Both the position numbers and the translations under genes were made by a program. 37,727 bases of DNA from Oscillospiraceae bacterium (GTDB taxonomy: Bacteria; Bacillota; Clostridia; Oscillospirales; Oscillospiraceae). The notes under the pieces are model-generated. The model saw only the letters and a list, made by a program, of their open reading frames with translations. It did no database searches and was not told the origin of the DNA. Positions within the stretch are counted from its first letter, which is position 1; the number at the start of each line of letters is the position of its first letter. The DNA is taken from NCBI GenBank assembly GCA_017436785.1, contig JAFSCK010000161.1:1-37727 (forward strand), written 5' to 3'. Positions 13,593-16,131 of this stretch are shown here, piece by piece.

Positions 13593-13621
13593 TTGACAAA
13601 TTCATTCCTCAAGGTTATAAT
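13593..13621 (+). promoter_or_regulatory. Perfect-consensus sigma-A promoter of tRNA-Leu
   Basis: TTGACA (13593-13598), 17-bp spacer, TATAAT (13616-13621). The expected start is about 7 bases before the tRNA, giving a very short 5' leader, as expected for a strongly expressed tRNA. Confidence 0.92.
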
Positions 13622-13635
13622 ATTTAAGCATGTTC

Positions 13636-13718
13636 GCGAGAGTGTTGGAATGGTAGACAAGCACGTTTGAGGTGCGTGTGGTTATGCCGTGTGGGTTCGA
13701 GTCCCATCTCTCGCACCA
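13636..13718 (+). tRNA. tRNA-Leu (anticodon GAG)
   Basis: 83 nt including an encoded CCA. Acceptor arms GCGAGAG (13636-13642) and CTCTCGC (13708-13714) pair fully, followed by A and CCA. Anticodon stem CACGT/GCGTG holds the loop TTGAGGT, so the anticodon is GAG (reads CTC and CTT). A long variable arm (TGGTTATGCCGT) and the T-arm GTGGGTTCGAGTCCCAT complete a class II tRNA, as expected for leucine. Its 3' end is the source of several partial copies in the next 500 bp. Confidence 0.96.
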
Positions 13719-13719
13719 A

Positions 13720-13756
13720 AATTCCGGTTACCCCTTACGGGGTGACCGGAATTTTT
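13720..13756 (+). terminator. Terminator 1 of tRNA-Leu (repeat unit 1)
   Basis: A 15-bp stem (13720-13734 with 13739-13753, one G-T pair), TTAC loop, then TTT. It starts one base after the encoded CCA. Its tip CCCTTACGGG is shared with the second terminator at 13945. Confidence 0.9.
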
Positions 13757-13944
13757 ATGCTTGAGATGGGACTCGAAAGGCCGTTAAGAAAACATGCCGG
13801 TGGCATGTTTTTAGGCCGTGGGAGAGTCCCTTGAATTTGAGACGCATCCAGTATGGATGTGGATCAAATTCAAATATGTCCGATTCCGAAAATGCGTTGG
13901 TACGAGCGCACTTTTCGATAAGTCCTATAAGAACACTCGCACCA

Positions 13945-13981
13945 AAAAATCCGAGTGCCCTTACGGGCATTCGGATTTTTT
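13945..13981 (+). terminator. Terminator 2 (repeat unit 2)
   Basis: A 16-bp stem (13945-13960 with 13965-13980, one G-T pair), TTAC loop, ending in a T-run. It follows a second CTCGCACCA, just as terminator 1 follows the real tRNA. Confidence 0.85.
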
Positions 13982-14214
13982 AATGCTCGCGATGGGACTC
14001 GAAGACCTAAATCGAAACAGTCCGGTGGACTGTTTCTGCCACCAGTTCAAAAACTGGTGGCTACCTTACGATGTGCTCTTGGCACATCGGCAACGAGTCC
14101 CATCTCTCGCACATTTCATCTACAAGCCGTGGGAGAGTCCCTCAGATTTCAGACGCATCCCGTAGGGATGTGGATGGAATCTGAATCTGGCTGATGCTGA
14201 AAAAGGATCGGTAT

Positions 14215-14231
14215 GGGAGCCTGAAGCTCCC
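14215..14231 (-). terminator. Short hairpin after the ZIP transporter gene
   Basis: GGGAGC/GCTCCC with a 5-base loop, directly after the stop codon on the minus strand. A T-run (CCTTTTTC) comes only about 9 bases later, so termination is possible but not certain. Confidence 0.45.
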
Positions 14232-14232
14232 C

Positions 14233-15036
14233 TCATCCCAGCATAACATCCAGCAGCATCATAGCCGCAAAGCCGAGAACGATTCCCATCGTTGCAACGT
14301 AGGGCTCTGTCTGTTGGTTTCTCTGGCATTCCGGGATCAATTCATGGACAGCAACCAAGATCATTGCGCCTGCTGCAAAGGATAAGGCATAGGGCAACAT
14401 CGCTTCCACATAGATCACCAGCAATGCCCCTATCACGCCGGCGATTGGTTCTACCATGCCGGAAGCCTGACCGAACAGAAAGCTCTTTTTTCTGGAAAAT
14501 CCCTCTCTTCTTAAGGGAATAGATACCGCCGCACCTTCCGGAAAATTCTGCAAACCGATTCCCACCGCCACAGAAACCGCACCCATCAGGCTTTCCATTG
14601 TCAATTCGCCGCTCTGCAATGCCCCAAACGCAACCCCCACAGCTAAACCCTCCGGTATATTATGCAGGGTGATGGAAAGGATCAGCATGATGATCCGGTT
14701 CAGCCGCTCATTGGGCTCACCCCGCGTATCGTCTGATTTTCTTCTGGCAAAGGAAACGATCCTGTCAGATGCCCACATAAACAATGCTCCGAACAAAAAG
14801 CCTGCAGTCGCCACAAGATAGGCTGGCTGATCGGAGGTGCTCTCTGCACGTTCAATCGCAGGCTGCAGCAAAGACCAGAAGCTGGCAGCGATCATTACGC
14901 CAGCAGCGAAGCCCAGCATAAGATTCAAAGCTTTTTGCTTTGGTGACGTAAAAAAGACAACGGTAGCGGCCCCCAGTGCGGTTATGAACCAAGTGCCCAG
15001 TGTTGCGATCAGTGCCATTATGACCAAATTATCCAC
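14233..15036 (-). CDS. ZIP family metal transporter
   Basis: 267 aa, about eight membrane helices. The two metal-site motifs of ZIP/ZupT proteins are present: LHNIPEGLAVGVAFG (HNIPEG at 125-130, helix IV) and LQNFPEGAAVSIPL (163-168, helix V), plus AVHELIPE near the end. The loop after helix III has charged residues (ARRKSDDTRGEPNERLNR) rather than a His-rich stretch. ZIP proteins import zinc, iron or manganese into the cytoplasm. The start is GTG at 15036, set by AGGAGGTG a few bases upstream. It is a single gene; a zinc-type ArsR regulator lies 8 kb away but no direct link is visible. Confidence 0.93.
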   Translation of the reverse strand: MDNLVIMALIATLGTWFITALGAATVVFFTSPKQKALNLMLGFAAGVMIAASFWSLLQPAIERAESTSDQPAYLVATAGFLFGALFMWASDRIVSFARRKSDDTRGEPNERLNRIIMLILSITLHNIPEGLAVGVAFGALQSGELTMESLMGAVSVAVGIGLQNFPEGAAVSIPLRREGFSRKKSFLFGQASGMVEPIAGVIGALLVIYVEAMLPYALSFAAGAMILVAVHELIPECQRNQQTEPYVATMGIVLGFAAMMLLDVMLG

Positions 15037-15114: not shown

Positions 15115-16131
15115 TTATCGAAGCTGGGTGATTACAAGATGTGCAGAAACAGGCCGGGTACCGCCTGCCAAAGGCGTAATGGTCAGGGCAGCAGCGGTGC
15201 CTTCCGGATTGCGCACAGTCAAAATGGAATTGACCGCCGTCGTTTCTACGATCGCCATACCCACAATTTGCGAGACGCCTGTTGCGCGGCCTGCCACGGT
15301 ATATGCCAAATCTTCCCCATTCAAGGTCAGAATCAGCTGCCCGGCTTCGGTCACACTTACTTGGAACAGCACCTGATAGGTGCCGATTTCAGCCAAGTTG
15401 AAGGAATCGGGGCCGGAGCGTGTAATGCCAGCCCCACTATTGGGACCGTCCTGAGGGAAGCTGACATCCGTACCGGGAGCAACCGTCGCAGCATTATCAG
15501 GAGGCATCAACGCATAGAAGTCCGCGTAGTTCAGAACGCCACCGGCGGGACCTTGTGGGCCCACGGGGCCAGTTTCTCCGATCGGACCCTGCGGACCGAC
15601 TGGGCCTGCTACGCCTGCGGGACCTTGAGGACCAGCAGGGCCAGTTTCACCAGCAGGACCTTGAGGACCCACAGGACCCGCTGCACCGGCAGGTCCTTGA
15701 ACACCAGCCGGACCCTGAGGGCCAATGGCACCCGTCTCACCGGCAGGACCTTGGGGCCCGATGGGACCGGCTTCTCCGGCAGGACCTTGAGGTCCAATAG
15801 GACCCGCTTCCCCCACGGGGCCTTGGGGGCCGGTAGATCCCTGCGGTCCCGTGGGACCGGGGACACCCATAGGGCCCTGAGGCCCCGTGGGGCCAGCTAC
15901 ACCCGCAGGCCCCTGTGGCCCCGCTGGTCCTCTGGGACCCGGAACACCCTGCGGACCTGCCGGACCTACCGGACCCTGCGGACCGGCAGGTCCCTGAGGT
16001 CCCGGAAGGCCATTGATACAGCAGTTACAATTGTCTCTGCAGCCATACTCTCTTGGAGAATACCGCTTGCATGAATTGTCATCGAACTGCGTGTCGCAAT
16101 TTCTATCTTCAAAATAACGATAGCTGTTCAT
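15115..16131 (-). CDS. BclA-like collagen-repeat protein, probable spore-surface protein
   Basis: 338 aa in three parts. Residues 1-40 are polar and Cys-rich ([12 protein letters not shown]). Residues 41-197 are about 52 uninterrupted Gly-X-Y triplets, mostly GPQ, GPA, GPV and GET, able to form a collagen triple helix. Residues 198-338 start [22 protein letters not shown] and form a beta-rich domain like the trimeric TNF/C1q-like ends of BclA. BclA proteins are glycosylated filaments on exosporia of Bacillus and C. difficile. There is no signal peptide, fitting deposition from the mother cell. Its promoter candidate is of mother-cell sigma type. Thr residues in the triplets may carry sugars. 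Repeat number is likely to vary between strains. Confidence 0.9.

Follow-up and report, generated by a model that had tools for sequence, protein, structure and literature searches.

The tRNA-Leu(GAG) gene in the window (the whole stretch of 37,727 nucleotides analysed here, contig 158 of 174 in the 3.05-Mb draft genome of an Oscillospiraceae bacterium) is followed by a short series of structured repeats that carry direct and inverted copies of the tRNA 3' end. We consider it probable that this series is a small array of tRNA-linked repeats (TLRs), whose mostly non-coding cassettes have entered a stable-RNA gene between its T-loop and its native end and terminator. The units form a large family, mainly in one Oscillospiraceae-like genus, behind tRNA, tmRNA and 5S genes. 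Overall, this is a new, large and informative variety of a little-known repeat class, and its reading as an integron-like system is a minority view.

Anatomy of the array behind tRNA-Leu(GAG)

The host gene occupies 13636..13718 on the plus strand (ARAGORN; Rfam tRNA, 48 bits), and the features described below lie on the same strand. We denote by A the part of a tRNA from the T-loop (position 57) to the CCA, here 13698-13718, by t a terminator, by A' an inverted A, and by X the core. The cassette formula is A-t-A'-X, closed by a further A, and the units read tRNA-A-t-A'-X-A. A' is able to pair with the tRNA's own A across t, forming a long palindrome, and with the downstream A across X.

Cassette 1 starts with the palindromic terminator t1 (13719..13756; sequence, repeat search and fold), which carries the tip CCCTTACGGG and differs from the terminators found at empty sites of matching tRNAs. 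It is followed by A'1, the inverted tRNA 3' end (13757..13777; inverted repeat I1 and fold), and by a type A core (13768..13831) defined by repeats, covariation, fold and a score of 121.9 bits with covariance model R1. This core contains the stems P1 (GGGACTC/GAGTCCC) and P2 (GGCC/GGCC), the hairpin P4 with a GGT loop (13789-13811), and a box at 13815-13831. Next to the box is hp2, a long hairpin with a conserved GAC..GGA internal loop (13831..13873; inverted repeat I4 and covariation). The right end of cassette 1 (13874..13944; sequence) terminates in CTATAAGAACA + CTCGCACCA (the last 9 nt of the tRNA), and a similar junction is present at locus L264.

Cassette 2 has the palindromic terminator t2 (13945..13981; sequence and repeat search), a second inverted copy of the tRNA 3' end, A'2 (13984..14003; inverted repeat I2), and a type B core (13993..14112; fold, and 80 bits with covariance model R2). 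The type B core consists of the closing stem GGGACTCG/CGAGTCCC and three hairpins at 14014-14036 (GGT loop), 14038-14061 and 14069-14089, and it ends in a direct A copy at 14094..14112 (direct repeat D3). A type A remnant at 14126..14184 (direct repeat D1) retains the box (14126-14142) and hp2 (14142-14184) without an inverted arm, and scores 49 bits with R1 over 14072-14188. The order in the window is thus a type A cassette (13719-13873), a type B cassette ending in the direct copy (13945-14112), and the type A remnant.

The initial annotation had described repeats built on copies of the tRNA 3' end, and these are real. The repeat search of the window returned a 95-nt repeat (13815-13909 and 14126-14220, 76% identity), a 68-nt repeat (13710-13777 and 13936-14003, 72%) and inverted copies of the tRNA 3' end at 13739-13777 and 13978-14003. 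The 19-base direct copy it had claimed is confirmed as well, 13698-13716 being 100% identical to 14094-14112 over 19 nt. Three stretches of the window fold with z-scores of -9.0, -9.1 and -12.7, and none of 200 dinucleotide shuffles of each was as good. The description of two units with the same order needs correction, as the second copy is not the first unit again: it is a type B core followed by a truncated type A piece. A single family of identical units was ruled out; there are at least two cores, A and B, which by eye have hairpin types in common in reverse order. The 17-base box is also present as described. Since the inverted T-arm and the box are pairing partners (the two strands of P1), the box is a short copy of the T-loop in direct orientation and not a separate motif.

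A search of the whole window with Rfam at gathering thresholds gave no match, in a run that missed even the tRNA. With relaxed thresholds, 13600-14260 returned the tRNA and weak matches below the cut-off, the best being long-hairpin (miRNA) models. Further downstream, at 15115-16131 on the minus strand, the window encodes a collagen-triple-helix protein with a BclA-like C-terminal match under the Pfam cut-off.

The same cassette plan is found with variations at other loci. In type A units the downstream A is often reduced to GARTCC, followed by hp2, and at three loci from other families of the order (L235, L237, L241) it is full length, with CCA and a terminator. At 5S genes the unit appears by eye as A-t-hairpin-A, without A'. 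Among 215 tRNA and tmRNA loci, a set collected via the units, 53 hold 64 direct copies of the gene's 3' end (16 nt with at most 2 mismatches), compared to none with shuffled ends, and an inverted core precedes 56 of the 64. Of the intervals that end in these copies, 58 measure 114-376 nt, one 8 nt and five 718-1265 nt. The arrays that we inspected have one to four units per locus.

Relation to E. coli repeats and extent of the family

According to PMC8144298, E. coli has 22 TLRs at ten loci, one to five per locus, lying directly behind a tRNA or rRNA gene and containing an exact match of 18-19 bp to that gene's 3' end. The same source dates their first description to 1978, lists them as of 2021 as having no known function, and mentions the retraction of an early functional claim for the tyrT repeat. 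The window matches this named class by its defining feature (PMC8144298), and the earlier statement that no named family fits is not supported. The units lie behind tRNA or rRNA genes in the window and in four genomes searched with covariance models, as do 102 of 135 boxes among the matches listed, and 19 of 19 nt are identical to the gene's 3' end in the window. Elsewhere this identity is mixed: type A units often keep GARTCC only, and it is the 53 of 215 loci counted above that keep 16 nt with at most 2 mismatches. The one to four units per locus also agree with the E. coli numbers.

Compared to the E. coli repeats, whose cores are unrelated by eye, the present family differs in its number of model hits (as many as 29 in a genome), in its tmRNA hosts, in arms that demonstrably match the host, in a filled and empty site pair, and in some intervals that bear genes. 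In K-12, 9 of 23 genes tested have a downstream direct repeat of at least 12 nt, and in 4 of the 9 there is an inverted piece in between; these loci were chosen partly by their coordinates, two regions contained no tRNA, and the significance rests on simple shuffles. The inverted piece between gene and direct copy is 13 nt at lysV and lysQ (0 of 2000 shuffles), 10 nt at tyrV (9 of 2000) and 9 nt at proK (23 of 2000). No inverted piece was found at rrfB and none beyond chance at lysT, lysW, lysY and lysZ, where the interval extended to the next tRNA and the test is not a clean one. The main text of PMC8144298 never uses the word "inverted". Separately, the tRNA genes of the K-12 lysT-lysZ operon (L255) are spaced by short repeats that include a direct copy of the tRNA-Lys 3' end and have no evident terminator.

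Using the stretch as a BLAST query gave matches in 77 of 149 genomes; 70 of the 77 belong to the same genus, the genome of the window being counted among them. The box pattern, which presupposes A or G at base 59, occurs in at least 115 stretches in named contigs; among the matches listed (80 of at least 115), nearly all box-bearing contigs are Oscillospiraceae or Clostridia-type MAGs. A tRNA lies on the same strand within 600 nt upstream of 102 of the 135 boxes among the matches listed, representing 13 kinds by anticodon. One box has a tRNA downstream only and 32 have none in the locus, 17 of the latter lying within 300 nt of the upstream edge. The orientation of the units is that of the tRNA.

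In four genomes, covariance models for the two cores found 33 hits of type A and 61 of type B (19 to 29 per genome), a few of which overlap. At least 49 of these 94 hits have a same-strand tRNA no more than 600 nt away (37 within 130 nt and 12 more within 600 nt, with 45 beyond), a lower bound based on 150 of 188 tRNA entries with the tRNA of the window added by hand. Direct scanning of 20 loci without a listed tRNA found a tRNA or tmRNA in 12. Among the remaining eight, L170 and L171 have a displaced or cut tRNA end, and L181 is part of a tRNA-Val array (L292). The core hairpin word GTCCGGTGGAC has 12 copies in the genome of the window, compared to 0 for its reversal; by eye, 11 of them are inside units and one is in an apparent coding region. 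Rfam confirmed hosts other than tRNA, namely tmRNA (L178, L188) and 5S rRNA (L007, L219), and at gathering thresholds found only tRNA, tmRNA and 5S at five loci. Searches across the order, with stricter filters and a sample almost wholly of other genera, placed R1 in 5 and R2 in 2 of 197 genomes, the genome of the window included. We found no earlier description of these units in the open-access literature.

Several further observations were made during these searches. Four loci (L010, L190, L212, L221) have orphan units with no tRNA found in the locus, and L010 is near a collagen-like gene that by eye resembles the one in the window. At L048 (6025-6142), and at many sites in relatives, a further dispersed repeat occurs on tRNA 3' sides; it consists of a terminator around TTTCGACAGAAGCTTG followed by TTCACTATTCACT-like sequence, and it also matches other families of the order. 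Locus L238, from another family of the order, has a stable-RNA-like 3' end with the T-loop TTCGATCCC, uncalled by ARAGORN and by Rfam at gathering thresholds, and two units follow with inverted arms that resemble this 3' end. The 16-base box pattern is also present in 16 viral contig stretches (L154-L169).

The arms of the units match the host gene. T-loop base 59 agrees across tRNA, A' and box in all 74 first type A units (42 G, 31 A and 1 T, the T being at tRNA-Glu), a set restricted to boxes that have a recognised inverted core (all but 10 of 135) and a tRNA within 130 nt. Both states occur at tRNA-His (6 G, 4 A). A' and box agree in 124 of 125 units with an inverted core, with unit 2 of L040 as the exception. 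In its acceptor part, A' is best matched by the unit's own tRNA in 41 of 74 cases (52 when ties are included) and better by another tRNA in 22, and A' is complete (15/15) in 8 of 74.

In 26 type B units, A' equals the T-loop 9-mer of the host in 22 and has one mismatch in 4, and A equals the host 6-mer in 24. Nine of these units are at unusual T-loops: Cys TTCAAATCT, Ala and Lys TTCGAATCT, Glu and tmRNA TTCGATTCC, Ser TTCAAATCC (three units) and Pro TTCGAGTCT. A' is exact in eight of the nine, with one difference at Pro, and A is exact in eight, with one difference at tmRNA. The shortness of type A boxes means that foreign 3' ends apparent in distal copies are mostly noise. L216 may be an exception, on which we do not rely: there the copy behind tRNA-Leu(UAA) is nearer to tRNA-Leu(CAA) (1 versus 3 mismatches).

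Stem composition and probable spread of cassettes

The covariation model for type A comprises P1, P2 and hp2, without P4. Across 64 type A units, 95.4% of the cells pair, compared to 73.1% in shuffles and 32-47% in slid structures. The covariation score is 0.57 versus 0.15 in shuffles and at most 0.11 in slid structures, and changes on both sides were counted in 413 cells versus 131 in shuffles. The number of pairs with a change on both sides (17 of 28) shows no excess over shuffles, 101 of 500 being as high; 15 of these 17 pairs are in hp2. Chance pairing is ruled out by the shuffles, the slid structures and the fold z-scores. The homologous units expected by the initial annotation in related genomes, the grouping of model hits behind tRNAs and covariation in excess of shuffles and slid structures are all borne out, along with its proposal of a family at tRNA 3' ends with compensatory stem changes, analogous to the tyrT repeats of E. 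coli.

P4 and the type B stems contain 0.3-0.5% G.T and 0-1.1% A.C, without strand bias, compared to 7% G.T in tRNA acceptor stems, 14% in T stems and 1.6% in terminators. These hairpin counts are to be read comparatively, because the custom finder penalises G.T and A.C equally. A count of P4 in a fixed register over 28 distinct hairpins gave 267 Watson-Crick, 2 G.T, 4 A.C and 7 other pairs, with 37 skipped. The near absence of G.U in P4 and type B stems points to copying or folding at the DNA level, and we read these stems as kept perfect there, either by template switching between the arms or by use of a DNA hairpin. In hp2, with 7.2% G.T versus 1.5% A.C, the pattern looks RNA-like, which leaves room for an RNA function of this hairpin. 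The earlier claim of selection for RNA structure is therefore too strong, with hp2 alone having an RNA-like look, and an RNA-only reading of all stems is weakened. As for the replicating RNA-like element also suggested, nothing pointed toward a replicating RNA.

These data bear on the possibility, which we regard as doubtful, that the units are small RNAs of the host, produced when transcription from the tRNA promoter reads through, and retained for a role such as a 3' processing buffer, a sponge or a protein decoy, as suggested for rrA/rrB/rrF. Such a role would fit the excess of G.T over A.C in hp2, which holds most of the covariation counted, and the orientation that the units retain with their tRNA. 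For the rRNA-linked TLRs of E. coli (rrA/rrB/rrF), read-through transcription, processing and interaction with Hfq and CsrA have been reported (PMC8144298). P4 and the type B stems, with neither wobble nor strand bias, argue against it, as does the presence of different cores behind the same tRNA. When the tRNA-Leu(GAG) gene was used as a query together with its promoter, 60 of 91 genomes yielded 62 matches, and of the best 30 of the 62, 12 have units (model search), 2 have remnants (by eye) and 16 have none, two of the 16 loci being incomplete. The unit is therefore dispensable at a given locus.

The likeness among units provides information on their spread. Of 33 type B cores, taken one per locus in four genomes, 18 have their nearest neighbour in the same genome, compared to 7.9 with shuffled labels, and 15 of 5000 label shuffles reach 18; the other 15 have their neighbour in another genome. 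No type B neighbour pair is at the same tRNA identity where both are known. Eight of the 33 have no assigned tRNA, and two of the eight (L190, L193) carry arms of the tRNA of their same-genome neighbour. When all 39 units are taken, 24 have a neighbour in the same genome; for the rest it is in another genome, at a different tRNA for 9 and with an unassigned tRNA for 6. The same-genome likeness could instead come from gene conversion among old copies.

One clean pair of filled and empty sites was obtained. In L270 (genome G052) the tRNA is followed by A-t-A'-X-A and then by the terminator that is directly behind A in the empty L273 (genome G051), with 38 of 43 positions identical; the upstream flanks of this single pair align over the promoter only. 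The insertion is thus ahead of the native terminator. At L264, a type A cassette similar to that of L266 (87% over 138 nt) adjoins the tRNA, and a type B cassette similar to that of L270 (86% over 146 nt), with its terminator, lies behind it. These loci suggest that t is part of the cassette, and the array is consistent with a cassette being added next to the tRNA. Movement of cassettes at the DNA level is likely, and no transposition protein linked to the units was found.

For a TLR array of inserted cassettes, as we favor, the following steps can be proposed. The cassette would supply a copy of the 3' end of the host RNA together with its own palindromic terminator, which would leave the host gene intact. 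Behind these lies the folded core X, closed by inverted (A') and direct (A) copies of the host T-loop and acceptor. Cassettes would then move, or be copied, between stable-RNA genes within a genome, and template switching between inverted arms during replication would rewrite A' and the stems to perfect complements, which may account for host-specific arms and for covariation nearly without G.U. By analogy with rrB of E. coli, read-through transcripts may exist, and hp2 could function as an RNA; the drive is most likely a selfish spread into a safe site and not a host function.

Gene-bearing intervals and other possible origins

A few intervals between direct copies are of gene size (5 of 64 over 700 nt, plus L048, L292 and L293). 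A Phd-like/ParE pair lies between the copies at tRNA-Tyr in G019, with the antitoxin below and the toxin above the Pfam cut-off. Other intervals encode a TIR protein at tRNA-Ser (L048), a GrpB protein (L083) and a methyltransferase (L293), and unassigned frames are present at L074, L148 and L292 (626 aa). Two homologues of the Phd-like/ParE pair in G060 and another in G002 stop at the gene borders, in loci that lack a tRNA, and a partial homologue in G004 has a tRNA-Ser about 1.3 kb away. With homologues away from tRNAs in G060 and G002, the pair looks acquired; its entry as a cassette is putative.

The sites of integrons, attC, have outer boxes, a spacer, an inner stem and variable hairpins, and to our knowledge every attC has a constant core box. 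The present units resemble attC sites and cassettes in having a structure-conserved folded hairpin with paired outer boxes and a variable inner stem, in forming arrays, and in the occasional gene between sites, one a toxin-antitoxin pair. It is conceivable, though in our judgment unlikely, that the T-loop serves as an attI and the folded A'-X-A as an attC, and that a recombinase acting on folded single-stranded sites adds mostly empty cassettes. Besides the attC-type anatomy and the genes in G019, L048, L083 and L293, the borders in the T-loop, the mixed array at L264 and the nearly wobble-free stems are consistent with this mechanism. The box, however, tracks the host tRNA in 74 of 74 units and is not constant, most intervals have no gene (just 5 of 64 exceed 376 nt), and the Phd/ParE homologues in G060 and G002 lack a tRNA in their loci. 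An integron integrase (TIGR02249 over the curated cut-off) was found in 0 of 70 genomes; weaker tyrosine-recombinase matches occur in all 70 and likewise in 14 controls. The widest version, which we find quite unlikely, would make the TLRs of Bacillota and E. coli alike the recombination sites of an undescribed integron-like cassette system at stable-RNA genes. Entry would be at the T-loop (or 5S loop), and recombination would act on the A'-X-A hairpin in its folded, single-stranded DNA form. Most cassettes would be empty and some would bear toxin-antitoxin, TIR or enzyme genes; they would be inserted beside the tRNA and would spread among the tRNA, tmRNA and 5S genes.

Other repeats and elements share single features with the units. 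REP/BIME sequences are dispersed small palindromes, as are the present repeats, which differ in being fixed behind stable-RNA genes with host-matched arms. Integrative elements at tRNA 3' ends leave a direct copy of the tRNA end and supply a terminator. Both features are found here, in units that are mostly 0.1-0.4 kb and, unlike such elements, have inverted copies and no integrase inside.

It is very unlikely that the units never moved and arose locally, time after time, from template switching at palindromic tRNA ends together with tandem duplication. A local origin would agree with the homogeneous tandem arrays (L189, L187, L070), the few units with a complete A' (8 of 74) and the homogenisation of inverted arms by template switching reported in PMC8604942 and PMC3820800, but similar cores are present at different tRNAs, at tmRNA and, as the hairpin only, at 5S, arrays are mixed, and type B cores group by genome. 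Direct copies of a tRNA 3' end are the usual mark of integration by a prophage or integrative element, and by eye the end of an integrase-like ORF at L013 immediately precedes a copy of the tRNA-Leu 3' end with a unit and the end of a recombinase-like ORF adjoins a unit at L172, yet scars of such ordinary elements with attachment sites at tRNA 3' ends are an extremely improbable source of the units, being disfavoured already by the conserved folded cores, and also by the inverted copies, the 19 to 29 model hits in each of four genomes and the 58 of 64 intervals of 114-376 nt.

Compensatory changes in stems do not by themselves prove selection on RNA, as two kinds of stem here are nearly without G.U. 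The gene-matched repeats of these relatives make the little-known E. coli class look like moving elements, and with many natural copies, mixed arrays, host-matched arms and a filled and empty site pair, the origin and movement of TLRs are now testable. If the gene-bearing intervals are true cassettes, the 3' ends of stable-RNA genes would be an overlooked place of gene capture.
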